Assembly (NCBI GenBank): GCA_903821905.1 | Contig: CAIJMQ010000028.1 | Location: 1 to 14,509, forward strand | Length of the DNA: 14,509 nt | Source of the DNA: an uncultured bacterium | GTDB taxonomy: Bacteria; CAIJMQ01 | Direction: 5' to 3' | Shown here: piece after piece, positions 1 to 14,509 of the stretch | Position numbering within the stretch: position 1 is the first letter of the stretch | How the letters are laid out: the number at the start of each line of letters is the position of its first letter | Notes under the pieces: generated by a model | What the model was told of the DNA's origin: nothing | Databases searched by the model: none | What the model saw: only the letters and a program-made list of their open reading frames with translations | Program-made: the position numbers and the translations under genes

Positions 1-1044
1 ATAATTAATAAATATAGGAAATTTCTTCCCGTTACAAAAAATACACCAGTTATAACACTTAACGAAGGAAACACGCCCCTTATACCCGCTAAAGTTCTTT
101 CTGAAATAACAGGCGCAAAAGTTTATTTAAAATACGAAGGGGCAAACCCCACGGGTTCTTTCAAGGATAGGGGCATGACAATGGCTATATCAAAAGCACT
201 TGAAGAAGGTTCTAATTCAGTAATGTGCGCATCTACCGGCAATACTTCGGCTTCTACTGCAGCTTATGCCGCAAGAGCTGGAATGAAATGTGCCGTTTTA
301 ATTCCTGACGGTGCAATTGCTTTAGGTAAATTATCCCAGGCACTTATGCACGGTGCAAAAGTTATTTCTATCAAAGGTAATTTTGATGATGCATTGGCAT
401 TAGTTATAAAGATTACTTCATCTTATCCGATAACATTGGTAAATTCTTTAAATCCATACCGCTTGGAAGGGCAAAAAACAGGAGCTTTTGAAATATGCGA
501 CCAACTCGAGAAAGTACCGGATTTTCACTTTATTCCTGTAGGCAATGCAGGCAATATAACCGCTTATTGGATGGGATATAAAGAATATAAAGCCAAAGGC
601 AAAACAAATTCTCTCCCTAAGATGATAGGATGGCAAGCAGAAGGAGCAGCTCCTATTGTGAAGAAAATGATAATAAAAAATCCTGAGACAATAGCAACAG
701 CAATAAGAATAGGCAACCCTGCAAGATGGAAAGAAGCAGAAGAAGCAGCTTTATCTTCCGGAGGATTTATAAATGCCGTATCTGATAAAGAAATATTAAG
801 TGCATACCATCTTCTGGCAGATAAAGAAGGTCTATTTGCTGAACCGGCTTCTTGTGCTTCAGTGGCAGGACTTCTAAAAGCAAAACAGAAAAATCTATTA
901 CTGTTAAAGAACTCACTTATCGTATGTATCATAACAGGATGCGGACTCAAAGACCCTGACAGAGCCGTAAAAGAATCTCCCCCACTTACTGTTTTAGCAA
1001 AAGATGATATGGAGAAAATATTGGAAATAATAGGCGTCAAATGA
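1..1044 (+). CDS. thrC: Threonine synthase, 5' end cut by window edge
   Basis: PLP-dependent enzyme converting O-phosphohomoserine to threonine in the cytoplasm, the last step of the threonine branch of the aspartate pathway. The frame is open from base 1, so the ATG at 175 is not the start: the coding upstream of it holds conserved family sequence ([18 protein letters not shown]) and the PLP-lysine motif GSFKDRG, with the lysine at codon 55 from the window edge. Other family signatures are ASTGNTSAS (serine/glycine-rich substrate and cofactor loop), PVGNAGN (phosphate-binding loop) and the C-terminal [10 protein letters not shown]. With 347 codons visible and a usual length near 350, only a few N-terminal residues are missing. 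The stop overlaps the next ATG (ATGA at 1041-1044), which suggests translational coupling. It is the first visible gene of the operon; homoserine dehydrogenase is a plausible upstream neighbour, not seen. Confidence 0.96.
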
Positions 1045-1880
1045 AAAAGTTAACTTTCCTGTTTATTGCTGTTCTCTTATTTTCTGCTGTAAATATTGTT
1101 TATTCGGATATAAATGAAGACTTGTTGAAAGCGGCGGGAGAGGGAAATGTAGAAACTGTTCGAGCTCTTCTTGATAAAGGAGCAGATGTCAATGCAAAAG
1201 ATAATGATGGCAAGACCGTGTTAATGTATGCTTCCATAGAGGGACAGACCGATACTGTAAAACTGCTTATTGAGAAGGGGGCAGATGTTAACATGAAAAA
1301 CTATTTTGGCCATGCTGCGTTAATGTTGGCTTCTCTAGGTGGGTACACTGATATAGCAAAACTGCTTATTGATAAGGGAGCGGATGTCAATGCGAAAGAT
1401 AATGCTGGATGGACTGCGTTAATATCGGCTTTCATAAACAGACACGCTAATACAGCAAAACTGCTTATCGAGAAGGGCGCAAATGTCAATGCAAAAGACA
1501 ATTACGGTAGGACTGCGTTAATGTTGGCTTACACAGGAAGCACAGATATAGTGGAATTGCTTATTGAAAAGGGAGCAGATATAAATGCAAAAGATAATAA
1601 AGGCGCTACTGTGTTAATGTGGGCTTCCACAGGAAGCATAGATATAGTGGAATTGCTTATTGAAAAGGGAGCAGATGTCAATGCAAAAGATAATAACGGC
1701 TATACTGCGCTAATGTTGGCTTCCTATAGAGGACAAACTGACATAATAAAAGTGCTTATTGAGAAGGATTCAGATATCAATGTGAAAGACAATGAAGGTT
1801 ATACTGCGCTAATGTTGGCTTCCGAAAATGGACATACTGAAATAGTAGAACTGCTTAAACAAGCAGGTGCAAAAGAATAG
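1041..1880 (+). CDS. Exported ankyrin-repeat protein
   Basis: A 279-residue protein with an N-terminal signal peptide (KK, then a hydrophobic core about residues 4-19, likely cut after the YS at 21-22), so it is probably periplasmic or secreted. The rest is eight consecutive ankyrin repeats: a degenerate first one from about residue 24, then repeats starting with GKTVLM, GHAALM, GWTALI, GRTALM, GATVLM, GYTALM and GYTALM, most carrying LLIEKGAD(V/I)NAKDN. Repeats five and six are 32 residues instead of 33. Ankyrin repeats bind other proteins; no enzymatic domain is present, so the partner is unknown. The start codon overlaps the thrC stop, placing the gene inside an amino-acid operon, where I see no obvious metabolic role. 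It may be a passenger that shares the promoter. Confidence 0.9.
1533..1676 (+). repeat. Recent 96-base duplication inside the ankyrin gene
   Basis: The 48-base stretch at 1533-1580 recurs at 1629-1676 with a single difference (C versus T in the fourth codon). The 96-base offset equals one 32-codon ankyrin repeat. The other repeats of the gene are clearly more diverged at DNA level, so repeats five and six look like a recent duplication or a gene-conversion tract. Confidence 0.75.
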
Positions 1881-1885
1881 AAAAA

Positions 1886-2839
1886 ATGAAAAAATATTTC
1901 TATATTATTGGGATTTTATTGGTACTGCTGATTGTTACATCATTAATTATCAGTCAAGTTTTAATATCTTCGAAGATAAAAAAAGAGATAAGAGATTGGT
2001 GTGGTAATCATAGTATAGAATCTTCTGATTTCAAGTGTGGAGTTAACATTCTCTCAGGGAATATAACTTTAGAAAAATGGGCACTAAAACAAGCGGATAA
2101 TAATTTTAGAATTGACAAAGCCACTGTTTCTTTTAATCCATTAGAGGTTTTGTCAAAAAAAACCATCAAACTTATCCATATACAGAAGGCAGATATAACA
2201 CTCAAACATTTCACCCCTTTTCTTCCCTCAATAACAAGTAATGATGATAATGCCAATAATAATCCTGCCCCTTCGACAAGTAATTTTATAATAGACGAGT
2301 TAAGAATAGACAATGTAATTGTAAGAGTTGAACTCCCAGATGGAAATAAAACCCCGGACATAACTCTTGAAGGTTTATTTAAAAATATAGGGGCAGATAG
2401 AAATACAATATTTTCAGTAAAAGCAACGTCTAACGCTTCTTCTTTAAAACTGACAGGAGATTTTAATTTTAACGATTGGAAGAAACATTTCGCTTATCTG
2501 CTTTTTGGTAAAAACGTATCTCTAAGTATAGTAAATATACTAGAAGAAGGTTTTTTGCCACCAGAAGTAAGAGAACAACTTCTTTCTCTTTATTTTAAGA
2601 ATGCCTTGCAAACAAAACTAAACGGAAAAATGGATATTGAGGGAAGTGGAGAGATAAAAGAAGAAACTATCGATTCGAAACTAAAGTTTGTTGTATCTGA
2701 TTTATCATGTGATACAGAAAATGAACGGATTAAATCTCTTATAAATAAAATAAAAAGTAAAGAAGGGTATGTGGAAGTCAACTATAAAATATACGGCACA
2801 TTAAAAAATCCGTATCTAACATACGATATATCTTTTTAA
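1886..2839 (+). CDS. Membrane-anchored AsmA/DUF748-like protein
   Basis: A 317-residue protein with one N-terminal transmembrane helix (about residues 4-27) followed by a large, beta-rich domain expected on the outer side of the inner membrane. The pattern around residues 70-110 (FRIDKATVSFNPLEVL, then IHIQKADITLKHF), with a second unit beginning NFIIDELRIDNVIV, is typical of AsmA/DUF748-type proteins, long beta-groove proteins associated with envelope lipid transport and outer-membrane assembly. At 317 residues it is much shorter than full AsmA members, so it would be a minimal version. It starts five bases after the ankyrin stop and ends one base before the phosphoglycerate mutase start. 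I see no strong ribosome binding site, so coupling to the upstream gene is likely. The family assignment rests on pattern only; another single-pass exported protein remains possible. Confidence 0.55.
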   Translation: MKKYFYIIGILLVLLIVTSLIISQVLISSKIKKEIRDWCGNHSIESSDFKCGVNILSGNITLEKWALKQADNNFRIDKATVSFNPLEVLSKKTIKLIHIQKADITLKHFTPFLPSITSNDDNANNNPAPSTSNFIIDELRIDNVIVRVELPDGNKTPDITLEGLFKNIGADRNTIFSVKATSNASSLKLTGDFNFNDWKKHFAYLLFGKNVSLSIVNILEEGFLPPEVREQLLSLYFKNALQTKLNGKMDIEGSGEIKEETIDSKLKFVVSDLSCDTENERIKSLINKIKSKEGYVEVNYKIYGTLKNPYLTYDISF

Positions 2840-2840
2840 A

Positions 2841-4031
2841 ATGAAATACTTAATGCTCATTGGGGATGGTATGGCTGACAGAAAGATTATTGATAGGGGT
2901 AGAAAAACGCCATTACAGTTAGCAGATATTCCCAATATGAATAAGTTAGCCAGAGAAGGAGAATGTGGGATGGTCAGAACACTTCCTCCTAACCTACCCA
3001 GAGGAAGTGATGTAGCAATAATGTCTCTTTTGGGATATGACCCCAAGAAGTTCTATACAGGCAGAGGACCGCTTGAAGCTCTTAACCTCGGTATTAATCT
3101 AAAGATGGGGGAAACCGCCTTCAGATGTAATTTTGTTACTGTTTCAGGGGATAAACTTGTTGATTACTCTGGAGGTCATATTCCTTCCTCCCAAGCGAAA
3201 ATCCTAATAGAATCCTTAGAGAAAGAATTAGGCGGAAATCAATTCTCTTTCTATCCGGGGCTTTCTTATCGGAATATTATGCTAGCCAGAAAAAATTCAG
3301 GTATTATAACGGAAGATTTAGAAACTCGTCCCCCTCATGATATAATCGGCGTTTCAGTAGAAGAAAATTTACCCAAAGGAAAGAGTTCAATTATACTTAA
3401 ACAAATAATGGAAAAGTCCTATAAATTACTTAAAGACCATCCAATAAATATTAAAAGACAGAAAAGTAAGGAAAATCCTGCCAATATGATATGGTTATGG
3501 GGAGAAGGTAAAAAGCCCCAAATCCCGTCCTTTTATGAGAAATATGGGAAAAATGGTGCCATTATATCAGCAGTAGACATAGTAAAAGGCATAGGAAAAG
3601 CAATCGGAATGGAAAGTAAATCTATAAAAGGTGCTACAGGATTTTTGGATACAAATTACCGGGGCAAAGTAAATGCGGCAGTTAAAGCCATAAAAGATAA
3701 AGATTTTGTCCTAATCCACGTAGAAGCTCCCGATGAAGCAGGACATTTAGGAGATGTGGATTTAAAAATCAAAGCATTGGAACAATTTGATAAGAATATT
3801 GTGGGCCCAATATTAAAGTATGTTTTAAAAAGCAAAGAGAAATATAAGATTTTTGTAGGATGTGACCATGCAACACCCGTGATCATGAAAACACATACCG
3901 ATGAAGCAGTCCCCTTTGTAATCTGGGGAAACAAAAGTAACAAGTGTGTTTCTTATAACGAAATAGCCATTTCATCTTCTTCTGTTTATTTTGAAGAAGG
4001 ACATAAATTAATGGAATATTTTCTAAGATAA
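2841..4031 (+). CDS. apgM: 2,3-bisphosphoglycerate-independent phosphoglycerate mutase (archaeal-type)
   Basis: Cytoplasmic metalloenzyme interconverting 3- and 2-phosphoglycerate in glycolysis and gluconeogenesis. At 396 residues it matches the ApgM branch of the alkaline-phosphatase superfamily, not the ~510-residue GpmI form. It opens with LIGDGMAD (metal aspartate D9), has the nucleophile region RGSDVAIMSLLGYDP with S56 as the likely phosphoserine, then TGRGPLEA, and near the C-terminus the metal-binding segments HVEAPDEAGHLGD and CDHATP followed by a THT triplet. Motif order and spacing look intact. It is one base downstream of the AsmA-like gene and 35 bases upstream of lysC. The same enzyme sits next to homoserine dehydrogenase, threonine synthase or aspartate kinase genes in several bacterial groups, and it was once confused with homoserine kinase; a metabolic reason for the linkage is not evident from sequence. 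Confidence 0.93.
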   Translation: MKYLMLIGDGMADRKIIDRGRKTPLQLADIPNMNKLAREGECGMVRTLPPNLPRGSDVAIMSLLGYDPKKFYTGRGPLEALNLGINLKMGETAFRCNFVTVSGDKLVDYSGGHIPSSQAKILIESLEKELGGNQFSFYPGLSYRNIMLARKNSGIITEDLETRPPHDIIGVSVEENLPKGKSSIILKQIMEKSYKLLKDHPINIKRQKSKENPANMIWLWGEGKKPQIPSFYEKYGKNGAIISAVDIVKGIGKAIGMESKSIKGATGFLDTNYRGKVNAAVKAIKDKDFVLIHVEAPDEAGHLGDVDLKIKALEQFDKNIVGPILKYVLKSKEKYKIFVGCDHATPVIMKTHTDEAVPFVIWGNKSNKCVSYNEIAISSSSVYFEEGHKLMEYFLR

Positions 4032-4066
4032 AATTTTATTAAATTAGATAACTTAAAGGTAAAAAT

Positions 4067-5284
4067 ATGGCTTTAGTGGTAAAGAAATTCGGCGGGTCCT
4101 CACTGGCAACGCCACAACATATAAAAAACATAGCCAAAAGAATAGTAGAGGACAAAAGAAATAAAAAAGATAATATAGTCATTGTTGTTTCAGCCACCGG
4201 TGACACTACCGATGACTTGATTTCTTTAGCAAAACAAATCCACCCAAACCCGCCACATAGAGAACTAGACATGCTAATTTCAACCGGCGAGGTAGTATCC
4301 AGCGCACTCATGGCAATGGCTATAGATAATTTGGGAGAACAAGCCGTCTCTTTGACTGGTCCACAAATTGGTATTATGACCGACAGTATACATACTCGAG
4401 CATCAATCAGAAAAGTTAAAACCGAAAGAATTAATAAAGAACTTGAAAAAGGTAAAATTGTTGTTGTGGCCGGATTCCAAGGAAAAGATGACTGCGAAGA
4501 AATAACTACACTTGGCAGAGGCGGTTCTGATACTACGGCAATAGCTATCGCTATCGCATTAAAAGCAGACGTCTGCGAAATATTTACTGATGTTGAAGGT
4601 GTATATACTGCTGACCCGCGGATTGTCCCTGACGCAAAAAAAATTAAAATAATCTCCTATGAGGAAATGCTTGAATTTGCTTCAAGCGGCGCCAAGGTAA
4701 TGCAAACAAGAGCAACCGAACTTGCAAGTAAATACGACCTCAAGTATCATGTTCGTTCAAGCTTCACAAAAACGGAGGGGACTATAATAATGAAAGAAAT
4801 TGATTCAATGGAAAAAGTTGTCGTAAGAGGAGTAGTGGCTGCAAAAGATGAAGCAAGGGTTACCATTCATGATATCCCGAATAAACCTGGAGTTGCAGCT
4901 TATATCTTCGGGAAGCTTGGCAAAGAAAAAATCAATGTAGATATGATTATCCAGTCCTCTGCTCAGAAGGATAAAAGTGACATATCTTTTACAGTAAATG
5001 AAGACATACTTCCCAAAACTTTGGAGGTAATGGAAAAAGCAAAAGAACACTTAAAAGCAGGAAAAGTATCAAGTGATTCCAATATCGGAAAAATCGGCGT
5101 TGTAGGAGTGGGAATGAGAACCCATTCTGGAGTAGCAGGCAAGATGTTTGAAGCCCTAGCAAGAGAGGACATAAACATAGAGATGATTTCAACTTCTGAA
5201 ATCAGGATTTCCTGTGTAATAAGAAGAGATTTATGCGATAAAGCAATGAAAGTTCTGCATAAGGAATTCGAATTGGAGAAATAA
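4067..5284 (+). CDS. lysC: Aspartate kinase
   Basis: Phosphorylates aspartate, the committed first step toward lysine, threonine, methionine and diaminopimelate. The 405 residues divide into an amino-acid-kinase domain (about 1-240) with KFGGSS at 7-12, ISTGE at 71-75, the nucleotide loop GRGGSDTTA at 150-158 and DVEGVYTADPR at 175-185, and two C-terminal ACT domains (about 258-325 and 340-400) that normally bind lysine and/or threonine for feedback inhibition. Length and layout match the monofunctional, Bacillus aspartokinase II/Corynebacterium type. An AAAGG at 4054-4058 precedes the ATG at suitable distance. It lies three bases before cimA. An internal start near 4790 may give a separate ACT-only subunit (listed separately). 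Confidence 0.96.
   Translation: MALVVKKFGGSSLATPQHIKNIAKRIVEDKRNKKDNIVIVVSATGDTTDDLISLAKQIHPNPPHRELDMLISTGEVVSSALMAMAIDNLGEQAVSLTGPQIGIMTDSIHTRASIRKVKTERINKELEKGKIVVVAGFQGKDDCEEITTLGRGGSDTTAIAIAIALKADVCEIFTDVEGVYTADPRIVPDAKKIKIISYEEMLEFASSGAKVMQTRATELASKYDLKYHVRSSFTKTEGTIIMKEIDSMEKVVVRGVVAAKDEARVTIHDIPNKPGVAAYIFGKLGKEKINVDMIIQSSAQKDKSDISFTVNEDILPKTLEVMEKAKEHLKAGKVSSDSNIGKIGVVGVGMRTHSGVAGKMFEALAREDINIEMISTSEIRISCVIRRDLCDKAMKVLHKEFELEK
4774..4792 (+). promoter_or_regulatory. Candidate internal start for an aspartate kinase beta subunit
   Basis: Inside lysC a GGAGGGG at 4774-4780 stands 9-11 bases before an in-frame ATG at 4790-4792 (codon 242). Translation from here would yield a 164-residue protein made only of the two ACT domains. 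Bacillus subtilis aspartokinase II is known to be an alpha2beta2 enzyme whose beta chain of about this size comes from such an internal start. The caveat is that the purines encode the conserved Glu-Gly-Thr, so the resemblance to a ribosome binding site could be incidental. Confidence 0.55.
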
Positions 5285-5287
5285 CAA

Positions 5288-6856
5288 ATGAAAAAGATAA
5301 AACTATACGATACTACTTTAAGAGACGGAGCCCAATCCAGAGGCATATCATTTTCTTTGGAAGACAAACTAAAGATAGCAAAGAAACTTTCCCAGACTGG
5401 TATTCATTATATTGAGGGCGGATGGCCCGGTTCCAATCCGAAGGATATAAGTTTTTTTAAAGAAATCCGGAACTTAAATCTTGGCAATAGTAAAATTGCG
5501 GCTTTCACTTCAACCCGAAGAGCAAACACAAAAGCAGAAGAAGATATTTCGCTTAAACGCTCTTTGGAAGCAGAAGTACCCGTAATTACAATCTTTGGGA
5601 AAAGCTGGGAACTGCACGTAAAAGACGTATTGAAAACAACAAACGAAGAAAACCTTAAAATGATTGAAGAATCCGTGCATTTCTTCAAAGGAAAAAATAA
5701 AGAAGTTATCTACGATGCCGAACATTTCTTTGACGGATTTAAAGATAATGCCGACTATGCTTTAAAAACACTAAAAGCAGCTTTTAAAGGCGGAGCTGAT
5801 TGTGTCGTTCTTTGTGATACAAACGGTGGAACCCTACCCTCTCAAGTTGCCTCAATAACAAAAAAAGTTAAGGAAGAGATAGGCTGTGAGGTAGGAATTC
5901 ATACTCACAATGATAATGGCATGGCAGTTGCAAACTCTATTATAGCCGTAGAAAACGGTGCAATACATATACAGGGAACTATTAACGGACTGGGTGAAAG
6001 ATGCGGTAATGCCGACCTTATTACCATTATCCCAAATCTGCAACTTAAAATGGGTATTAAGTGTATAACAGAAGAGAACCTCGCAAAACTAACGGAACTT
6101 TCTCTTTATGTTGACGAGATTGCCAACCTGATCCCGCAAAAGAATCATCCATTTGTCGGAGAAAGCGCTTTCGCTCACAAAGGTGGTATGCATATAGATG
6201 CTGTAAAGAAAAATCCGCTTTCATTTGAACATATAAACCCTATACTTGTAGGCAACAAGAGAGAAATTCTTGCTTCTGAACTTTCAGGAAAATCTACTAT
6301 CTTTCTTAAGGCTAAAGAGTTGGGAATTCATTTAGACGAAAAAGATCCTAAAATAATAAATTTACTAAATAAATTGAAAGAACTGGAAAATGCCGGATAC
6401 CATTTTGAAGCCGCAGAAGCTTCATTTGAACTACTAATAAAAAGAAATTTCACCCAATACAAAAAATTCTTCCACGTAGAAGGATATGACGTTCACGTTT
6501 ACCTTCAAAACGGTAAACTATCCTCTGAAGCAACTATCAGAGTTAAAGTGGACACAAAAGAAGAACATACCGCTTCTTTAGGCGACGGACCTGTCGATGC
6601 ATTGGCAAGTGCTTTAAAGAAAGCACTACTCAAATTCTATCCATCCCTTTCTGAATTTGAATTAATAGATTACAAGGTGAGAATAATTAACCCCGAAGAA
6701 GGCACTGCTGCCAAAACAAGAGTCCTTATTCAATTCCGCGACCACAAGAGAACATGGTCTACAGTCGGCGTTTCAACCAACATTATTGAGGCATCCTGGG
6801 AAGCACTGGTAGATTCAATAGAGTATAAACTTTTGAAAGACCTGGAAGAGAAATAA
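5288..6856 (+). CDS. cimA: (R)-citramalate synthase
   Basis: Condenses pyruvate with acetyl-CoA to give citramalate, the first step of the threonine-independent route to 2-oxobutyrate and isoleucine. The 522 residues start with YDTTLRDGAQ (metal/catalytic R12, D13), continue through a TIM barrel with GIHTHNDNGMAVAN (metal ligands H205, H207) and NGLGERCGNA, and end in a LeuA-type regulatory dimer domain (about 390-520) that includes LGDGPVDAL. The segments IHYIEGGWPGSNP and TSTRRA belong to the roughly 520-residue CimA branch of the isopropylmalate-synthase superfamily rather than to LeuA. A close homocitrate or isopropylmalate activity cannot be excluded by eye. GGAGA at 5275-5279, inside the end of lysC, is its ribosome binding site; the gap to lysC is three bases. 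It is the last gene of the operon; I saw no clear terminator hairpin after it. Confidence 0.9.
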   Translation: MKKIKLYDTTLRDGAQSRGISFSLEDKLKIAKKLSQTGIHYIEGGWPGSNPKDISFFKEIRNLNLGNSKIAAFTSTRRANTKAEEDISLKRSLEAEVPVITIFGKSWELHVKDVLKTTNEENLKMIEESVHFFKGKNKEVIYDAEHFFDGFKDNADYALKTLKAAFKGGADCVVLCDTNGGTLPSQVASITKKVKEEIGCEVGIHTHNDNGMAVANSIIAVENGAIHIQGTINGLGERCGNADLITIIPNLQLKMGIKCITEENLAKLTELSLYVDEIANLIPQKNHPFVGESAFAHKGGMHIDAVKKNPLSFEHINPILVGNKREILASELSGKSTIFLKAKELGIHLDEKDPKIINLLNKLKELENAGYHFEAAEASFELLIKRNFTQYKKFFHVEGYDVHVYLQNGKLSSEATIRVKVDTKEEHTASLGDGPVDALASALKKALLKFYPSLSEFELIDYKVRIINPEEGTAAKTRVLIQFRDHKRTWSTVGVSTNIIEASWEALVDSIEYKLLKDLEEK

Positions 6857-6879
6857 AGCTAAAACATTAACTATTCTTC

Positions 6880-8616
6880 TTAATCTTTTCTCCTATTACT
6901 TTTCTTGATAACCCGATGGGAAGAAAAAGCTTGTTCTAAAATATTCCATAAAACTTCGGAATTTTCAGCCTGTATTATTGCTTCTCTCATCTCTTCCTTA
7001 GCCATTACTCTTGCGATTATCCCGAGTATCTGGATTTGCACCCAATCGTTCTCCTTGGGGGTCAGAACTAAAAATACAAAATTCGTTGGTTTACCATCAG
7101 GAGAATTCCATTCAATTCCCCTACTAGATCTTCCAAAAGCAATTATTGGTTTCATTAATAAAGGAATCCGAGCATGAGGGATAGCAATTCCTTCTTCCAT
7201 GGCTGTTCCCATTCCATCTTCACGTCTAAGCACACGTGCATAAAGTGCTTCACTATCAACTATACTTTCCTGTTCCACTACTTTATAACAAATTTCAAGC
7301 AGTACACTATTCCTATCGGCTGCTTTAATTTCAGGAATAACATTCGTTTTGGAAAAGAATTCCAAAATACTGATTTCTTTTCGGCTGGAAATTACATGTG
7401 CAAGCCAAGGCCCAAGTAAAACAGCAGAAACAATCGCACCAAAAACAATTCCTACAAAGATAGATTCATTAATAATATTGTATTTCAATGCCAAGATGCC
7501 GATAACAATTTCCATTTCGCCGCCGGGAGTATGAGCAACGGCAACAGGCATAATGTTCGGCTTTGATAATTTAGCAAATATTGCACCTAACCACGCTCCA
7601 AAGAACTTACCGAATATGCTGACAAAAGTTATAAGAAACGCTAAAAACAAATTGAAATTCTTTGCGAAATCTATTTTTAAACCTATTCCCGCAAAGAAAA
7701 GGGGAATGAATATGGCGTAAACCATCTGAGAGATAACTTGTCTTGTTCGTTCGGGTAATGCTTTTGCTTCTCCCGCCATAACTCCTGCAATAAAAAAGCC
7801 CAATAATGCATGAAGCCCGACTTTCTGCATAATTGCGCCACACAAGAATCCCAAAAGACAGATAAAGGTAAGTGAGCTACCAGGTTCTGGCAAGTTGAAT
7901 TTTTTTATACGCGAAATTACAAAGTCAGCAAATTTTCTGCCGTATGATAAACAAAATACTATAAACCCGATAGTTAGAATAAAAATAGTGAACAGATTGA
8001 CTATGGTTAGGCTTGTTTTGATAAAAATGCTTAAAATAATGCTGAAAATCATCCAGCCAATAACTTCGTTGACTGATAATGCCGATATAATAAGATATCC
8101 TAAATCAGTTTTGGCAATATTCAGGTCACTAAGTGCCCTGATAGCAAGCGGCATGGCACTTATAGTCATTGTAGTTGCCATAAAGAAACAAAACAGAATT
8201 CTTTGTGCAGGATTTACCAGGTAATGCGAAGGAATAAATAAACAAACTATAAACGATATAATCATGGGTACTGCAATGTCCGTCAAAGCTATGGTTAAGG
8301 CTTTGCCTCTTTGTCTCCAGGCAATGGAAAAGTCCATCTTAAGCCCACTTTCCAACAAAAGGAAAAGCAAACCTAACCAAGAAACCGTCTCAAGTATAGA
8401 TTGTTGAGTAATATCTGCAGGGAATATGCGTTGATGTAAAACCGGAAGGAACCTACCAAAGATAGTTGGACCTAATAGAACACCTACTAAAATTTCGGCT
8501 GTTAGTGCTGGTTGTTTCCACTTGCGGAATAATTCTCCTAATCCTCGTGCTAATCCTAATAGAAGAAAAATTTGAACCAGAAAAATAAAAATATTCTCTT
8601 CGCTAAAGAAAATCAT
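6880..8616 (-). CDS. CPA2-family cation/proton antiporter with C-terminal PTS EIIA-like domain
   Basis: A 578-residue inner-membrane protein. Residues 1-410 hold about twelve hydrophobic segments of the Kef/NapA-type monovalent cation:proton antiporter fold, with QPALTAEILVGVLLGPTIFG at 35-54, the helix-5 region ALSVNEVIGW at 179-188 and HTPGGEMEIVIG near 362-373. Residues about 420-565 form a cytoplasmic PTS EIIA type-2 (fructose/nitrogen) domain with GIAIPHAR, where H481 is the expected phosphorylatable histidine. Family knowledge suggests the EIIA part senses phosphorylation state or binds regulatory ligands; no other PTS gene is present, so the phosphodonor is unknown. The gene is convergent with cimA and starts 46 bases from the tRNA-Leu fragment. 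The usual helix-5 pair (Asp-Asp or Asn-Asp) reads Asn-Glu here. No obvious ribosome binding site precedes the ATG. Confidence 0.88.
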   Translation of the reverse strand: MIFFSEENIFIFLVQIFLLLGLARGLGELFRKWKQPALTAEILVGVLLGPTIFGRFLPVLHQRIFPADITQQSILETVSWLGLLFLLLESGLKMDFSIAWRQRGKALTIALTDIAVPMIISFIVCLFIPSHYLVNPAQRILFCFFMATTMTISAMPLAIRALSDLNIAKTDLGYLIISALSVNEVIGWMIFSIILSIFIKTSLTIVNLFTIFILTIGFIVFCLSYGRKFADFVISRIKKFNLPEPGSSLTFICLLGFLCGAIMQKVGLHALLGFFIAGVMAGEAKALPERTRQVISQMVYAIFIPLFFAGIGLKIDFAKNFNLFLAFLITFVSIFGKFFGAWLGAIFAKLSKPNIMPVAVAHTPGGEMEIVIGILALKYNIINESIFVGIVFGAIVSAVLLGPWLAHVISSRKEISILEFFSKTNVIPEIKAADRNSVLLEICYKVVEQESIVDSEALYARVLRREDGMGTAMEEGIAIPHARIPLLMKPIIAFGRSSRGIEWNSPDGKPTNFVFLVLTPKENDWVQIQILGIIARVMAKEEMREAIIQAENSEVLWNILEQAFSSHRVIKKSNRRKD

Positions 8617-8661
8617 TTAATTATTCATTTGGTTATTTTTGTCTTTAGTTTGAAAATTTAG

Positions 8662-8722
8662 TGCCGAAGGGGGGAGTTGAACCCCCAATCCCGTTAGGGA
8701 ACATGGTCCTGAACCACGCGTC
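8662..8722 (-). tRNA. tRNA-Leu (CAG) 3' fragment, probable attachment site
   Basis: Read on the minus strand this is the 3' part of a class II tRNA. There is a five-pair anticodon arm CGTGG/CCATG around the loop TTCAGGA (anticodon CAG, reading the leucine codon CUG), a long variable arm TCCC-TAAC-GGGA, a perfect T arm GGGGG-TTCAACT-CCCCC, the 3' acceptor strand CTTCGGC and discriminator A. CCA is not encoded. Similarity to leucine tRNAs begins at GACGCG, the 3' side of the D arm. The required 5' acceptor strand (GCCGAAG) and a normal D arm are absent to the right, where integrase-side DNA begins. It is therefore probably non-functional alone: a 3' segment left at the end of an element that integrated in the gene. 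The alternative is a decayed tRNA with a D-arm deletion. Confidence 0.8.
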
Positions 8723-8756
8723 CAGCACTTTTCCATTGTTTTCTATTTTTTACTTG

Positions 8757-8865
8757 CTTTTACCAATGCCATTTGCTAATATCGTTTTATGAGCTTTATT
8801 GTTTTTCTATCTTTTACCAGAGTTTACAGGAGGTGTATTATAATTCTTACACCATCCTTACACCA
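8757..8865 (+). repeat. Four CTTNNACCA repeats, candidate integrase arm sites
   Basis: Within the 331-base gene-free gap (8617-8947), CTTTTACCA occurs at 8757-8765 and 8811-8819, and CTTACACCA at 8846-8854 and 8857-8865. All four have the same orientation and agree at seven of nine positions. The last two are 11 bases apart, one helical turn. A near copy lacking one base (CTTTTCCA) is at 8728-8735, beside the tRNA fragment. Placement between a presumed core site and the integrase gene is what is known for arm-type sites of tyrosine integrases. An operator role is the alternative. Apart from the tRNA fragment and these repeats I see nothing else in this gap. Confidence 0.55.
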
Positions 8866-8947
8866 AAGAGTTTATTCTTTTGTCAAAGAAACAGTCTATT
8901 GTTGCAAAAAATAACAATGATGTCAAAATAAAACAGGAGATAATATC

Positions 8948-10078
8948 ATGTCTGTTTATCTGAGATGTCCTCACTGTAAAACTGACCAGAATTACCAGAA
9001 CAAAAGATGTAAGAGATGCTTTACACCGCTACCAGTAAAAGACAGAAATTACAGAGTGGTAGTCTGGCATAAAGGAAAAGTAGTCACCCAGCTTGTGCCT
9101 TATAATCTGAAACTTGCCAAGGATATAGAAGCCAAATTAAAAAGCGAACTTGTATCAGGCAGCTACTATCCCAGAAAAACAAAGACAGATTCTCTTGATG
9201 ACATAGCATCGAGATACTTTGAAGAATACAAGGCAAGAGGCGGAAAGATGTGGGAAGACGAGATTGAAAGATATAATTTCTGGTTCAAAAAAAGATTCGG
9301 GAATAACAGATTAGACAGGATTACTCCTTCTGATGTTGAGAAATTCAAGTTAGACCTGAGCAAAAGTATTACGAAAATGGGAACTCCCCCCAGCCCAAAG
9401 ACAGTAAAGAATGCATTAGAACTTCTATCAAGACTTTTCAATTATGCTATCAGAATGGAACTGTATGAAGGGAATAATCCTGTGAAAAAGGTTACAAGAC
9501 CCAAGATAAATAATATGCGTGAGATTACTTTAACACAGGAGCAGGCTGTAAAGCTCATCGAAGCGCTGAATGAATATCCCGATAAACTTATGTCTAATCT
9601 GGTTAAACTTGCTCTTTTTACCGGCATGAGAAAAAATGAATTGCTGAAATTAAAATGGAAAGACGTGGATTCAAAGAAAGGCTTTATCTATATCAGGAAT
9701 CCAAAAAGCGGAAGAGATGAAGTTATACCCTTAAATAACTCTGCCATTGAAGTTATTAAAGCACAAGCATTGAGTGATGAAGACGAATTCTTGCTATTCC
9801 CTGGAAAAAATGGCGAAGCAAGACATGATATCAGGCATCCTTGGAAAAGAATAAAGAATCTTGCCGGTTTGCCTGATGATTTCCGTTTTCACGATTTAAG
9901 GCATACTTTTGCTTCCTTGCTTGCTTCTTCAGGCAAGGTTGATATTTACACGCTCCAGAAATTACTTACTCACAAAAGCCCTCAGATGACACAGAGATAT
10001 GCTCATTTGATAGAGCAAAGGATAAGAGAAGGGACAGAAGTAATGGATGATATTATAAGAACAGAAAAGAAAGATTGA
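8948..10078 (+). CDS. Tyrosine recombinase (phage-type integrase) with N-terminal zinc ribbon
   Basis: A 376-residue site-specific recombinase. Residues 1-30 form a CxxC...CxxC zinc ribbon (C7, C10, C21, C24). Residues 34-76 look like the small beta-rich arm-binding domain (RNYRVVVWHKGKVV...SGSYYP), about 82-185 like the core-binding SAM-like helical domain (IASRYFEEYKARGGK), and 190-370 are the catalytic domain. All active-site residues are present: R228 (TGMRKNELLKLKW), K253, H315 and R318 (HDLRHTFAS), H342 (LLTHKSPQMTQRYAH) and nucleophile Y351. It should therefore be active in integration and excision. AGGAG at 8935-8939 lies nine bases before the ATG. It reads inward from the tRNA-Leu fragment, as expected of a tRNA-targeting integrase. 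No excisionase gene is obvious; the zinc ribbon could conceivably bind DNA or a partner in its place. Confidence 0.93.
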   Translation: MSVYLRCPHCKTDQNYQNKRCKRCFTPLPVKDRNYRVVVWHKGKVVTQLVPYNLKLAKDIEAKLKSELVSGSYYPRKTKTDSLDDIASRYFEEYKARGGKMWEDEIERYNFWFKKRFGNNRLDRITPSDVEKFKLDLSKSITKMGTPPSPKTVKNALELLSRLFNYAIRMELYEGNNPVKKVTRPKINNMREITLTQEQAVKLIEALNEYPDKLMSNLVKLALFTGMRKNELLKLKWKDVDSKKGFIYIRNPKSGRDEVIPLNNSAIEVIKAQALSDEDEFLLFPGKNGEARHDIRHPWKRIKNLAGLPDDFRFHDLRHTFASLLASSGKVDIYTLQKLLTHKSPQMTQRYAHLIEQRIREGTEVMDDIIRTEKKD

Positions 10079-10144: not shown

Positions 10145-10837
10145 TTATTCTTCTATTTTAGCAATTGGTAATAAGAGCTCTTCATAGATATCCATGACTA
10201 TATCTATTTCATCCTTAATTTCTTTGTAAGTGTAGTATAAAACAATTGCGCCATCATCTGTCACCATAATTGGATGGACTGCATTGGAAAATTCATAATG
10301 GAATGAAAGTGTGGAGATATCCCCTTCTTCTTTAAATTTTTGGAAATCAGTGGTTGATTCAAGATTGCTACCCATTAAGGCAGATGCTTTTACTAATCCT
10401 TTTTCAAAACGAAACCACACACCTTTAACATGAGGTAATTTTGAAAGGAGAGATGCCATATCTATTTTTAATGTTTTTATTTTAATATAGGTAACATCTT
10501 TTGTTTTACGACAAAAATCAATTACAAATCTTTTCTTTCCAGATAACAATAGTATTTGATTTTGTTGACTATAAAAAGATTCAATCTTTTCTTTGCGGAT
10601 ATATTTTTCGAAGGATGAATTATTCACCCTGCCACAAGCAGTTTCTTCCATTTCATGTTCAATAATATATTTAATAAAATCCTTGTGGTTGATTTGATCA
10701 TGTGCTTTAAATATTTTTGTTTGCGGTTCTGGAGGTATCCCATCCAAAGAATATTGGTTACCCATGACAAGTGGTTTCTTAGTAAATTTGGAATTTTCAA
10801 AAACATTTACTTGTGTCAATTTGTATGATTTAGCCAT
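10145..10837 (-). CDS. Unrecognised 230-residue soluble protein, second gene of two-gene cassette
   Basis: I do not recognise this protein. It has no signal peptide or membrane segment and is charged with mixed alpha/beta character. A lysine-rich N-terminal part contains a possible helix (INHKDFIKYIIEHEMEETA, about residues 48-66). Strand-like stretches follow (ILLLSGKKRFVIDF, then VTYIKIKTLKIDM), and the C-terminal third has alternating strands (STLSFHYEF, GAIVLYYTY) and ends in an acidic helix (DIVMDIYEELLLPI). It carries two cysteines and no enzymatic motif I can name. Its ATG overlaps the stop of the upstream two-TM gene by eight bases (ATGGCTAA) and it has no Shine-Dalgarno of its own, so translation is probably coupled and the products probably work together. 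The gene is convergent with the integrase and AT-rich relative to the host operon, consistent with acquired cargo. Confidence 0.75.
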   Translation of the reverse strand: MAKSYKLTQVNVFENSKFTKKPLVMGNQYSLDGIPPEPQTKIFKAHDQINHKDFIKYIIEHEMEETACGRVNNSSFEKYIRKEKIESFYSQQNQILLLSGKKRFVIDFCRKTKDVTYIKIKTLKIDMASLLSKLPHVKGVWFRFEKGLVKASALMGSNLESTTDFQKFKEEGDISTLSFHYEFSNAVHPIMVTDDGAIVLYYTYKEIKDEIDIVMDIYEELLLPIAKIEE

Positions 10838-11624
10838 TTTTTTGTGATTTTATATATTTTTTAACATTAGCAGAAAGACAAATAAAATCAGTTGAAAGTT
10901 CTTTTAAACTATGCAGGTTACTAGCATTAATAACTATTTTATCTTTTTGAACTATTACAATATCTTTTTCAGCATACTCCTTGAGTTTTAGATTAATTGT
11001 AAAAGAATTAATTTGATTCGCTTTTAAGTGAGAAATATAGATTGAATAAAATGGATTAAATTTGTTGAAATCTATATTTACTACATATGAGCAGTTCGTT
11101 GGGTGCAGCATCTCTTGAAAGTCTGTTAATAGTGGGACTAGTATAGTATTAATCCTATCTTTAGCATCGTTACTCCCTATTTCGAAAGCTGACAAAGAAA
11201 TATCTACTATTCCGTATTCATATGGCGATGTTTTTTGTGGCTGAAAATCAAAATAGAAATTTAATGTGTCATAAATAGAAAAATTTATAGAGTTTAAGGT
11301 TTTGTGAAATATTTTTACGGGTATATGTTCTTTTTGTTTCTTATCTAAAAATTTTTGGACTTTTCCGATAATATCGGAATCAAAATCCCCATCATATCTA
11401 ATATTGACTTGCCATTTTGTGGCATAATTCTTTATCCAATTTTTAAATTTTACTATATAAAAATAGAAATTTAGATTGTTTTGATAAAGAGAGAAAATAA
11501 AACTGCTAAACAATCCTATAAATCCTCCAATCATGATTGGTAGATTGGAAATATCTTTATAGGTTTTAAAAGCGCAAAAGATATATACAACTGTCAAGAT
11601 AAACCAAATAATTGTCCAAACCAT
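10830..11624 (-). CDS. Unrecognised two-TM protein with large cytoplasmic domain, first gene of cassette
   Basis: From the ATG chosen here the product has 264 residues: two adjacent transmembrane helices (about 1-19 and 29-47, separated by a short KTYKD-containing turn), then a positively charged stretch (KFKNWIKN) that should be cytoplasmic, and a roughly 200-residue soluble domain rich in alternating beta strands (VDISLSAFEI, YVVNIDFNKF, FTINLKLKEY, DIVIVQKDKIVINAS). The topology is thus a membrane hairpin carrying a cytosolic domain. The frame is also open from a TTG at 11666, giving 278 residues, but that TTG has no ribosome binding site and lies eight bases past the -10 box described separately, so the ATG at 11624 is preferred. 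That ATG also lacks a clear Shine-Dalgarno, so the start is uncertain. Two-TM plus beta-rich domain is a shape seen in membrane effectors of immune systems, but I find no diagnostic motif. Confidence 0.72.
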   Translation of the reverse strand: MVWTIIWFILTVVYIFCAFKTYKDISNLPIMIGGFIGLFSSFIFSLYQNNLNFYFYIVKFKNWIKNYATKWQVNIRYDGDFDSDIIGKVQKFLDKKQKEHIPVKIFHKTLNSINFSIYDTLNFYFDFQPQKTSPYEYGIVDISLSAFEIGSNDAKDRINTILVPLLTDFQEMLHPTNCSYVVNIDFNKFNPFYSIYISHLKANQINSFTINLKLKEYAEKDIVIVQKDKIVINASNLHSLKELSTDFICLSANVKKYIKSQKNG

Positions 11625-11674
11625 ATATTTTAATGGAATTATCTTTAATAAAATTAAGGATGTCAAATAAAGAA

Positions 11675-11807: not shown

Positions 11808-12698
11808 ATGAGTGCATTCAAACACGCACCAATTTCTGACACAAAAAAGAAACAGATAGCAAGAGCAGCTGAGAGAGCCACGGCTTTGAGAAGATTAGAG
11901 AAATTCAAGGAAGAAAAAATTTCTCTTCAGCGCGATGTGTTTTTCGTTCCAGGTTGGAGTGATGAAAAAGCCCGTTACTGGTTAGAGCTTTGTCCTAATG
12001 GTTATACTACCATGAACAACCAGATTAAAATGGTGACACTAAATCCAGAGAAAGTCCATTTTGTCACTTTTTCTGACGAGGAATCGGAAAAATGTGAAAG
12101 TTTTCTCGATTTCGCCAAAATTCTTAAAAAACGCATTGATAATGAGGTTGGATTAAAAACGCCCATTGATTTAGTAGGACACAGCATGGGAGGACTGGAT
12201 ATTGTCGCTGCCATTACGCAAGAGCCAAATCCTTTATTAAACGTCAAAAGATGCATAACCATAGTCACACCTCATCGTGGTTCTGACCTAGGCCAATATC
12301 AATACATAATAAGAGAGATTATAGACCAAAAACCTCATTGGGCAATACAAGGCAAATATCTTTCTCCCAAATACAAACCCATCAGAATTCTTCAGAATCT
12401 CGAAACTAGAAAAACTTTGTTAAACAGGATTGAAAAACTCTATACATTTACTGGAACAAGAGACAAAGTTACCTTTGGTGTAACTAGAATTCAAAATGAT
12501 GGTTTAGATAGTAAGTTCTATAGAGAAAAAGTGACTGATTTCCCAGCAATCGACGGAGCATGCCATTCATCTGAATGTGGTTTGCCTGTTCAAGCTATTA
12601 CTCAAGATTGTCGAACCATAGTTAACATCTTAGACATACTATCCGGTGTAAATATAGATATAAAAGAGGGCAATTATGGTTATATTTTCAAGGCTTAG
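11808..12698 (+). CDS. Alpha/beta hydrolase, lipase/PGAP1-like
   Basis: A 296-residue hydrolase, probably an esterase or lipase, with no signal peptide and therefore probably cytoplasmic. After a basic helical extension (residues 9-37, rich in Lys/Arg/Glu) the fold starts with DVFFVPGW (43-50), the usual oxyanion-hole strand. The nucleophile elbow is DLVGHSMGGLD with S126. TPHRGSD at 154-160 is typical of lipase/PGAP1-like members. The acid is likely D219 (FTGTRDKV) or D232, and the catalytic histidine likely H253 (GACHSSECG). The full triad is therefore available. It is divergent from the two-gene cassette, with its own strong promoter and ribosome binding site (AAGGAG, seven bases before the ATG). 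Substrate is unknown; phospholipid, acyl ester or thioester are all possible. Confidence 0.83.
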   Translation: MSAFKHAPISDTKKKQIARAAERATALRRLEKFKEEKISLQRDVFFVPGWSDEKARYWLELCPNGYTTMNNQIKMVTLNPEKVHFVTFSDEESEKCESFLDFAKILKKRIDNEVGLKTPIDLVGHSMGGLDIVAAITQEPNPLLNVKRCITIVTPHRGSDLGQYQYIIREIIDQKPHWAIQGKYLSPKYKPIRILQNLETRKTLLNRIEKLYTFTGTRDKVTFGVTRIQNDGLDSKFYREKVTDFPAIDGACHSSECGLPVQAITQDCRTIVNILDILSGVNIDIKEGNYGYIFKA

Positions 12699-12787: not shown

Positions 12788-13702
12788 GTGAAGCAAAAAT
12801 ATCTAATCCTGTTTTTAGTAGTAAGTATAATCTTCGTAGCAGGCTGCACCACAAACACCCCCACAGAACCAAATACACAAAAGCCAGAAACCATAAATAT
12901 TACTAATTTAAATACAGAAAATTTACACACTATAAAAATAGCCTCATTCAATATTCAGATTTTCGGGCAGGATAAGATAAAAAAATCAGAAGTCATGAAA
13001 ATAATCACAAGAATAGTCAAGGAATATGACTTGGTTGCAATACAGGAAGTGAGAAGTACAGAACAAAACATTATACCCACATTATTAGATTACATAAATG
13101 ACGTGGATACTAAATATGATTACGTAATAAGCGAAAGACTTGGCAAAACAAACATCAAAGAGCAGTATGCTTTTGTCTATAACACCAAAACAGTAAGTCT
13201 TATTCCAAATAGCAGTTATGTTGTAAAAGATCCTGATGATGTTTTCGAAAGAGAACCTTTTGTTGCTTCTTTTAAGAGCGGGAATTTTGATTTCACGATG
13301 GTTGACAATCACATCAAGCCTGAAGATGCGGAAGCAGAACTCAAACATTTAGAAGTAGTAATAGATAATATCTATAACAGCTCTTCTGAGAAAGATGTTA
13401 TAGTGGTTGGAGACATGAATGCAGACGGCAAATATCTCAATGAAAACAAACTGGCTGTAATATTGCCGGAATGGACCCAGATGATTGGAAATAATGAAGA
13501 TACGACAGTGGCAGCTTCTGACAATACCTATGACAGGATGATGACAAGAGATACAACTGCAAAAGTAGAATATACAAGGAAATCAGGAGCATTCAGATGG
13601 GATACTGAATACGGAGTAACAGATCCTGAGCTTATCAAAAATGTTTCAGACCATTATCCTGTTTATGCAGAATTCCAGACTGATTTACCGGATGATGATT
13701 AG
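12788..13702 (+). CDS. Lipoprotein of the endonuclease/exonuclease/phosphatase (DNase I-like) superfamily
   Basis: A 304-residue protein starting with GTG. A lipoprotein signal (hydrophobic residues 5-18, lipobox VAGC with C20) is followed by a Thr/Pro/Asn-rich linker (21-48), so the catalytic domain sits outside the inner membrane. The domain (49-297) shows the superfamily metal and catalytic residues in order: N55 (IASFNIQIFG), E87 (VAIQEVR), H175 (VDNHIKP), D209 and N211 (VVGDMNADG), Y248-D249-R250, and D288-H289 (VSDHYPVYAEF). Members cleave phosphodiester or phosphomonoester bonds in DNA, RNA, sphingolipids or inositol phosphates. The QEVR and YDRM contexts and small size recall secreted DNase I-like nucleases, so an extracellular nuclease is the best guess. 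It lies 89 bases after the hydrolase on the same strand; cotranscription is possible. Confidence 0.87.
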   Translation: MKQKYLILFLVVSIIFVAGCTTNTPTEPNTQKPETINITNLNTENLHTIKIASFNIQIFGQDKIKKSEVMKIITRIVKEYDLVAIQEVRSTEQNIIPTLLDYINDVDTKYDYVISERLGKTNIKEQYAFVYNTKTVSLIPNSSYVVKDPDDVFEREPFVASFKSGNFDFTMVDNHIKPEDAEAELKHLEVVIDNIYNSSSEKDVIVVGDMNADGKYLNENKLAVILPEWTQMIGNNEDTTVAASDNTYDRMMTRDTTAKVEYTRKSGAFRWDTEYGVTDPELIKNVSDHYPVYAEFQTDLPDDD

Positions 13703-14035: not shown

Positions 14036-14509
14036 ATGAGCATAAAAGTAAAAACAGAAAAAATTTATTCCATTCTAGAATTAAATAACGCCGTTAAGGG
14101 CATACTGAATTGTGAGTTTCCAGATATGATTTGGGTGTATGGCGAAATTCAAGATTATAATAGGAATAAGCATAAACAACATATCTTTTTCAGACTATGC
14201 GAGAAACATCCCGAAATAGATCAGATAATTGCGCAAGTTACAGTTGTAATTTTTGAGCGAACTAAAGAAAAATTAACACAAATTCTAAAACAAGTAGAGA
14301 ATAGATTTGAATTACAAGATGATATAGAAGTGAAATTTCTTTGCCGCATTGATTTATATTCGAAGTCCGGCACTTTTATGTTAATCGTGGAAAGTATAGA
14401 TACCACTTATACTCTAGGTAAATTAGCTCAGAACAAACAGAAAATAATTGCTGAATTAAAAACAAAGGGAATATTAGATAAAAATAAAAAATTAATAATC
14501 CCTATTATG
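14036..14509 (+). CDS. xseA: Exonuclease VII large subunit homologue, N-terminal part, cut by window edge
   Basis: The first 158 codons of a protein whose N-terminal OB-fold matches XseA. YSILELNNAVKGIL (11-24) aligns with the family's YSVSELNRxIK opening, then DMIWVYGEI (30-38), HIFFRL (49-54), AQVTVVIF (66-73), a hydrophilic LQDDIEVKFLCRIDLYSKSG (93-112) and FMLIVESI (114-121). It ends in the linker TLGKLAQNKQKIIAELKTKG and KNKKL that leads into the catalytic domain in XseA. The complete enzyme with XseB degrades single-stranded DNA into oligonucleotides from both ends. The catalytic half is beyond the window, so activity and even full family membership are unproven. The start follows AAGG by only two bases, an unusually short spacing. 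Whether this gene belongs to the mobile element or to the host is unresolved. Confidence 0.75.
   Translation, partial: MSIKVKTEKIYSILELNNAVKGILNCEFPDMIWVYGEIQDYNRNKHKQHIFFRLCEKHPEIDQIIAQVTVVIFERTKEKLTQILKQVENRFELQDDIEVKFLCRIDLYSKSGTFMLIVESIDTTYTLGKLAQNKQKIIAELKTKGILDKNKKLIIPIM

Follow-up and report, generated by a model that had tools for sequence, protein, structure and literature searches.

An integrative element inserted at a tRNA-Leu(CAG) gene in an uncultured bacterium of a candidate phylum

Recombination by an integrase at a tRNA gene is the textbook mechanism and ordinary route by which genomic islands join chromosomes. An element that crosses over in the anticodon loop of a tRNA gene has to bring along the whole 3' part of the tRNA to restore the gene, so that a repeated block of about 60 bases is expected. 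In the Islander survey, a 3' fragment was found in 3760 of 3919 tDNA islands, and the anticodon-centred site was the commonest (2083 of the 3919; PMC4383910). Related integrases at different tRNA genes have already been described, and a Frankia element has an attL of 81 bp (PMC3218068). The locus analysed here shares with Islander class A (tyrosine integrases, anticodon-type site) an intact tRNA gene at one end, a displaced 3' fragment, oriented alike, at the opposite end, an integrase gene by an end and a crossover that lies inside the tRNA, probably in the anticodon loop. It differs in that its integrase has only distant relatives among the phages and plasmids searched and its ends lie on separate contigs.

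The analysed stretch of DNA (hereafter the window; 14,509 nucleotides) is the whole of contig C28 in an assembly (G000) of 1.30 Mb and 121 contigs that is 84% complete. Positions 8659–8720 on its minus strand carry a displaced 3' fragment of tRNA-Leu(CAG), an attR-type scar (reverse complement CGCGTGGTTCAGGACCATGTTCCCTAACGGGATTGGGGGTTCAACTCCCCCCTTCGGCACTA) that begins with the anticodon stem's 5' strand, extends 3 bases beyond the discriminator and comprises the anticodon arm, variable arm, T arm and 3' acceptor strand with discriminator A (8662). Its anticodon loop TTCAGGA occupies 8713–8707, with the anticodon CAG at 8711–8709, and the anticodon stem-loop CGTGG-TTCAGGA-CCATG (8702–8718, minus strand) is most likely the core site and crossover region. 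ARAGORN recognised no tRNA over the whole window and Rfam gave nothing meaningful for the fragment; the truncated tRNA that the earlier note had placed on the minus strand beside an integrase is real. Its likeness to the intact gene stops on the integrase-facing side, as that note had described, breaking off abruptly at 8720/8721 within the anticodon stem. The repeated block of about 60 bases also exists, at 62 bases, but it spans 8659–8720 rather than 8662–8722 and contains one mismatch (8717).

The neighbouring gene (8948–10078, plus strand) encodes a tyrosine integrase of 376 aa (Pfam Phage_integrase PF00589, E 7.3e-35; phrog_1, E 5.5e-70). It contains the catalytic R...H-x-x-R...H...Y set of PF00589 in the motifs TGMRKNE (R228), HDLRHT (H315 and R318), LLTHKS (H342) and RYAHL (Y351). 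At the N-terminus (window 8948–9030), a Cys4 pattern, CPHC...CKRC, is suggestive of a zinc ribbon and is kept in the integrase of Candidatus Ratteibacteria STD1_7 (see below). The genome holds one close copy of the integrase. No close relative was found in the viral contigs, phages or plasmids searched, and those among the phages and plasmids are distant, all with <60% identity. In another class member (G004:C35), a 38%-identical integrase adjoins a tRNA-Leu(CAA) gene.

An intact tRNA-Leu(CAG) gene is located at C29:13625–13709 (ARAGORN). In a BLASTN search of the whole assembly, C29:13650–13711 matched the fragment over 61 of 62 bases (98%, E 4.9e-25), and the runner-up was tRNA-Leu(GAG) at 86%. 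The intact gene is the only near-identical partner of the fragment in the assembly, and the only mismatch is at 8717, with G in the fragment and A in the intact gene. Host genes flank the C29 tRNA on its 5' side and non-host, foreign-looking genes on its 3' side, so the predicted polarity was found; the intact copy, expected further to the right of the window, is on another contig. CTA follows tRNA-Leu(CAG) at both copies (window 8659–8662 and C29 13708–13711), and CCA is encoded in the relatives G001 and G002.

We then compared the host flanks with these relatives. The window's flank (1–8658) carries a thrC-like gene, an ankyrin-repeat protein gene, apgM, lysC, cimA and a Na/H antiporter gene, and left of the tRNA on C29 lie a U32-peptidase-like gene, ilvB, ilvN, sppA and a membrane protein gene (names by sequence reading). 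Contig C10 of G002 holds both sides in one piece, in the order U32-ilvB-ilvN-sppA-yip-tRNA-Leu(CAG)-cimA-lysC-apgM, followed by the thrC end, with 57–91% protein identity; the order on contig C40 of G001 is tRNA-cimA-lysC-apgM-thrC. Because the G002 flanks are joined at one tRNA gene, C28 and C29 each represent half of a single ancestral locus that was broken at the tRNA. The orientation also fits, reading tRNA 5' host, tRNA, island, 3' fragment and cimA side. Neither G001 nor G002 has a close copy of the integrase.

These observations correspond to the Islander signature: (i) the intact tDNA and its cognate fragment belong to one replicon, as judged from the same assembly and a locus shared by synteny with G002; (ii) the fragment lies downstream of the tRNA in the orientation that fits the G002 flank order; (iii) the integrase gene is between the two, on the island side of the fragment; and (iv) relatives have an empty site (G002:C10 and G001:C40), where the tRNA-Leu(CAG) gene is intact and the island is missing. 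This empty site is that of the two relatives; no same-species empty site or circular form was seen. The earlier note had looked to relatives with cimA, the antiporter and an intact tRNA without an island, and the island-free tRNA by cimA is indeed there, but not the antiporter. The latter, a Na/H antiporter fused to a PTS EIIA domain (6880–8616, minus strand), separates the tRNA fragment from cimA and is not part of the att-bounded island. G001 and G002 lack it at this position, it is absent from the other class members searched, and among the other genomes searched only two gave matches, at 32% identity.

We therefore have little doubt that an integrative element was inserted at tRNA-Leu(CAG) by tyrosine-integrase recombination, and the earlier interpretation is essentially right. 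An attP carrying the 3' part of tRNA-Leu(CAG) would have recombined with the host tRNA gene, with the exchange falling within the tRNA and the anticodon loop as its most likely site. The C29 junction would then unite the 5' half of the host gene with the 3' half brought by the element into an intact tRNA, and the window junction (8659–8720) would hold the displaced 3' part of the host gene, adjoining the integrase gene. The island would extend from 8721 rightward through the end of C28 and on to C29, from 23132 down to 13712. A block of 62 bases is not unusual for a tRNA-targeting integrase, given the longer attL mentioned above, and the earlier suspicion that about 60 bases is long for an att site does not hold.

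The element end adjoining the integrase (8721–8947, minus strand) is similar in the STD1_7 element at another tRNA gene, as aligned between C28 and STD1_7 contig C39. It contains GGTGTAAGGATGGTGTAAG at 8846–8864 (minus strand), made of two direct copies of GGTGTAAG with 11-base spacing. The corresponding pattern GGTGTAAGGNTGGTGTAAG, itself taken from the two ends, has exactly two sites in the genome at ≤2 mismatches, C28:8846–8864 (minus) and C29:13748–13766 (plus). Each lies just inside a predicted end, the C29 site ∼37 bases past the block that the intact tRNA shares with the fragment, and the five class members without this integrase have no match. Compared locally, the two end regions reach a similarity of 18, above all 2000 shuffles though only just (shuffle maximum 17). 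By analogy with known tyrosine integrases, we read the two sites as candidate arm-type sites to which the integrase would bind. The motif also matched 12 stretches in viral contigs, and by tblastn none of these encodes the integrase or any other protein of the window or of C29; only one of the 12 has a gene for tRNA-Leu or tRNA-Glu, and that gene belongs to a large tRNA array several kb off. We estimate that, given the size of the collection, 12 matches for 17 fixed bases are about what chance and related contigs would yield.

A second element occurs in Candidatus Ratteibacteria STD1_7 (G003), of the same family as the window's genome; G003 and G060 are the same genome, with identical contig numbers and lengths, leaving two elements in the comparison. 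The elements have in common a similar end sequence, the arm motif, the small open reading frame (ORF) and integrases that are 81% identical. On STD1_7 contig C39 (JAQURI010000039.1), a tRNA-Glu 3' fragment lies beside the integrase gene, and the same end sequence and motif come after it; the intact tRNA-Glu(CTC) is at C44:9434–9508 and is followed by the motif and the small ORF that is also found beside the C29 tRNA end. The STD1_7 element differs in residing in tRNA-Glu(CTC) and in the cargo by its integrase, an AbiEi/AbiEii-like pair and an SNF2-type helicase (L035 7176–9584). The tRNA-Glu(CTC) gene of the window's genome, on C75, is identical to the STD1_7 gene over 75 bases and has no arm motif beside it.

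The fragments of both elements read GTGGTTC where both intact tRNAs read ATGGTTC, with tRNA-specific sequence right after, and the fragment and intact copy of STD1_7 also have different discriminator bases. The G/A and discriminator differences place the exchange between these points, inside the tRNA; from these letters, the crossover was most likely in the anticodon loop. As a tentative proposal, to which we give somewhat less than an even chance, the 81%-identical integrases would use Leu-CAG and Glu-CTC through the common GTGGTTC half-site, with specificity set mainly by the overlap copy in attP and not by the protein.

The island comprises at least 15.2 kb (5,789 + 9,421 bases), its middle being unassembled; the Islander length criterion is 2–200 kb between tRNA and fragment. 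We infer that the two arms join. The last 160 bases of C28 have no matching or overlapping contig in the assembly. Island GC is slightly lower than that of the host flank on both contigs (0.329 versus 0.367 and 0.368 versus 0.381). In the window, cargo extends from 10145 to the contig end at 14509: two unknown proteins (10145–10837 and 10830–11666, both minus strand), an alpha/beta-hydrolase-like protein (11808–12698), a lipoprotein-like endo/exonuclease/phosphatase (12788–13702) and the start of an XseA-like exonuclease (14036–14509), the last three on the plus strand. From the tRNA outward, C29 encodes the small ORF, a ThiF/E1-like protein, a protein with a JAMM-like motif, a protein with a ubiquitin-like N-terminus, a CoiA-nuclease-like protein, a HerA/VirB4-like ATPase, a DNA methylase and a sigma-region-4 protein. 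The small ORF has no viral-contig relative and no Pfam family; its position alone prompts the guess of an excisionase.

The ThiF/E1-like, JAMM-like and ubiquitin-like genes form an operon (C29 14155–16233, minus strand). The ThiF/E1-like protein matches PADLOC E1-E2 models, the JAMM-like metalloprotease motif HxHP...SxxD was read from the sequence and has no family match, and the apparently ubiquitin-like N-terminus was recognised by eye only. The operon is possibly a ubiquitin-like conjugation or defence system, one that fits no exact named family. The ATPase (HerA/VirB4/CedD-like; 575 aa; C29 16715–18442, minus strand) matches PADLOC mad8 and DndH, and its NCBIfam matches are far under the curated cut-offs. 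With respect to relaxase and conjugation genes, it is the only candidate seen in the assembled parts of the island, and it also gives a weak terminase-like PHROGs match; no clear phage structural gene (capsid, portal, terminase or tail) was found among the island proteins scanned against PHROGs, the middle again being missing.

Other readings of the locus have to be weighed. The ends on C28 and C29 could belong to two different elements that share the tRNA-Leu gene, or to a tandem or composite array there, as the unjoined contigs and the other cargo by the STD1_7 integrase would allow. We consider this unlikely, since the genome has exactly two arm-motif sites and one close integrase copy, STD1_7 has the same pairing of ends and BLASTN found no second tRNA-Leu(CAG) fragment in the assembly. 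A decayed tRNA pseudogene, or a duplication independent of integration, would account for a truncated fragment that is not recognised as a tRNA, but hardly for one with 98% identity to the intact gene, an abrupt end in the anticodon stem and a neighbouring integrase. Relatives carry the intact gene exactly here, and with the empty site contradicting it, this reading has almost no chance of being correct.

The fragment and the element flank might also be expressed as a D-arm-less tRNA-like RNA with a new 9-bp outer stem (AGUGCUGGA/UUCGGCACU). Flank sequence AGTGCTGGA, which is not the tRNA's own 5' strand, can pair with the acceptor-strand sequence TTCGGCACT over 9 bp, and the RNAfold z of −3.9 (1 of 200 shuffles as stable) would favour such a fold. 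However, 30-base random genomic flanks pair equally well in 48 of 1500 cases (3%), and in STD1_7 just 4 pairs form in the counterpart (z −1.0) and none in the attP version. We treat the fold as chance, since the second element is without it and some random flanks match it, and regard expression of such an RNA as very improbable.

Under the preferred reading of one integrative element inserted at tRNA-Leu(CAG), we infer that the element is still mobile. It shares with the integrases of PMC3218068 the use of different tRNA genes by related integrases and differs in belonging to another bacterial group; conjugative Rep/Tra modules of those elements were not recognised in the window's island, with its middle unassembled. 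Both ends of a mobile island are here placed to the base, and part of its cargo is shown, in a little-studied candidate phylum. If the proposed role of the attP overlap is true, the element pair would illustrate target switching by such elements. The island and its STD1_7 relative make up a matched pair in which a change of tRNA target by tyrosine integrases can be studied, and this is the mildly useful part of the finding.
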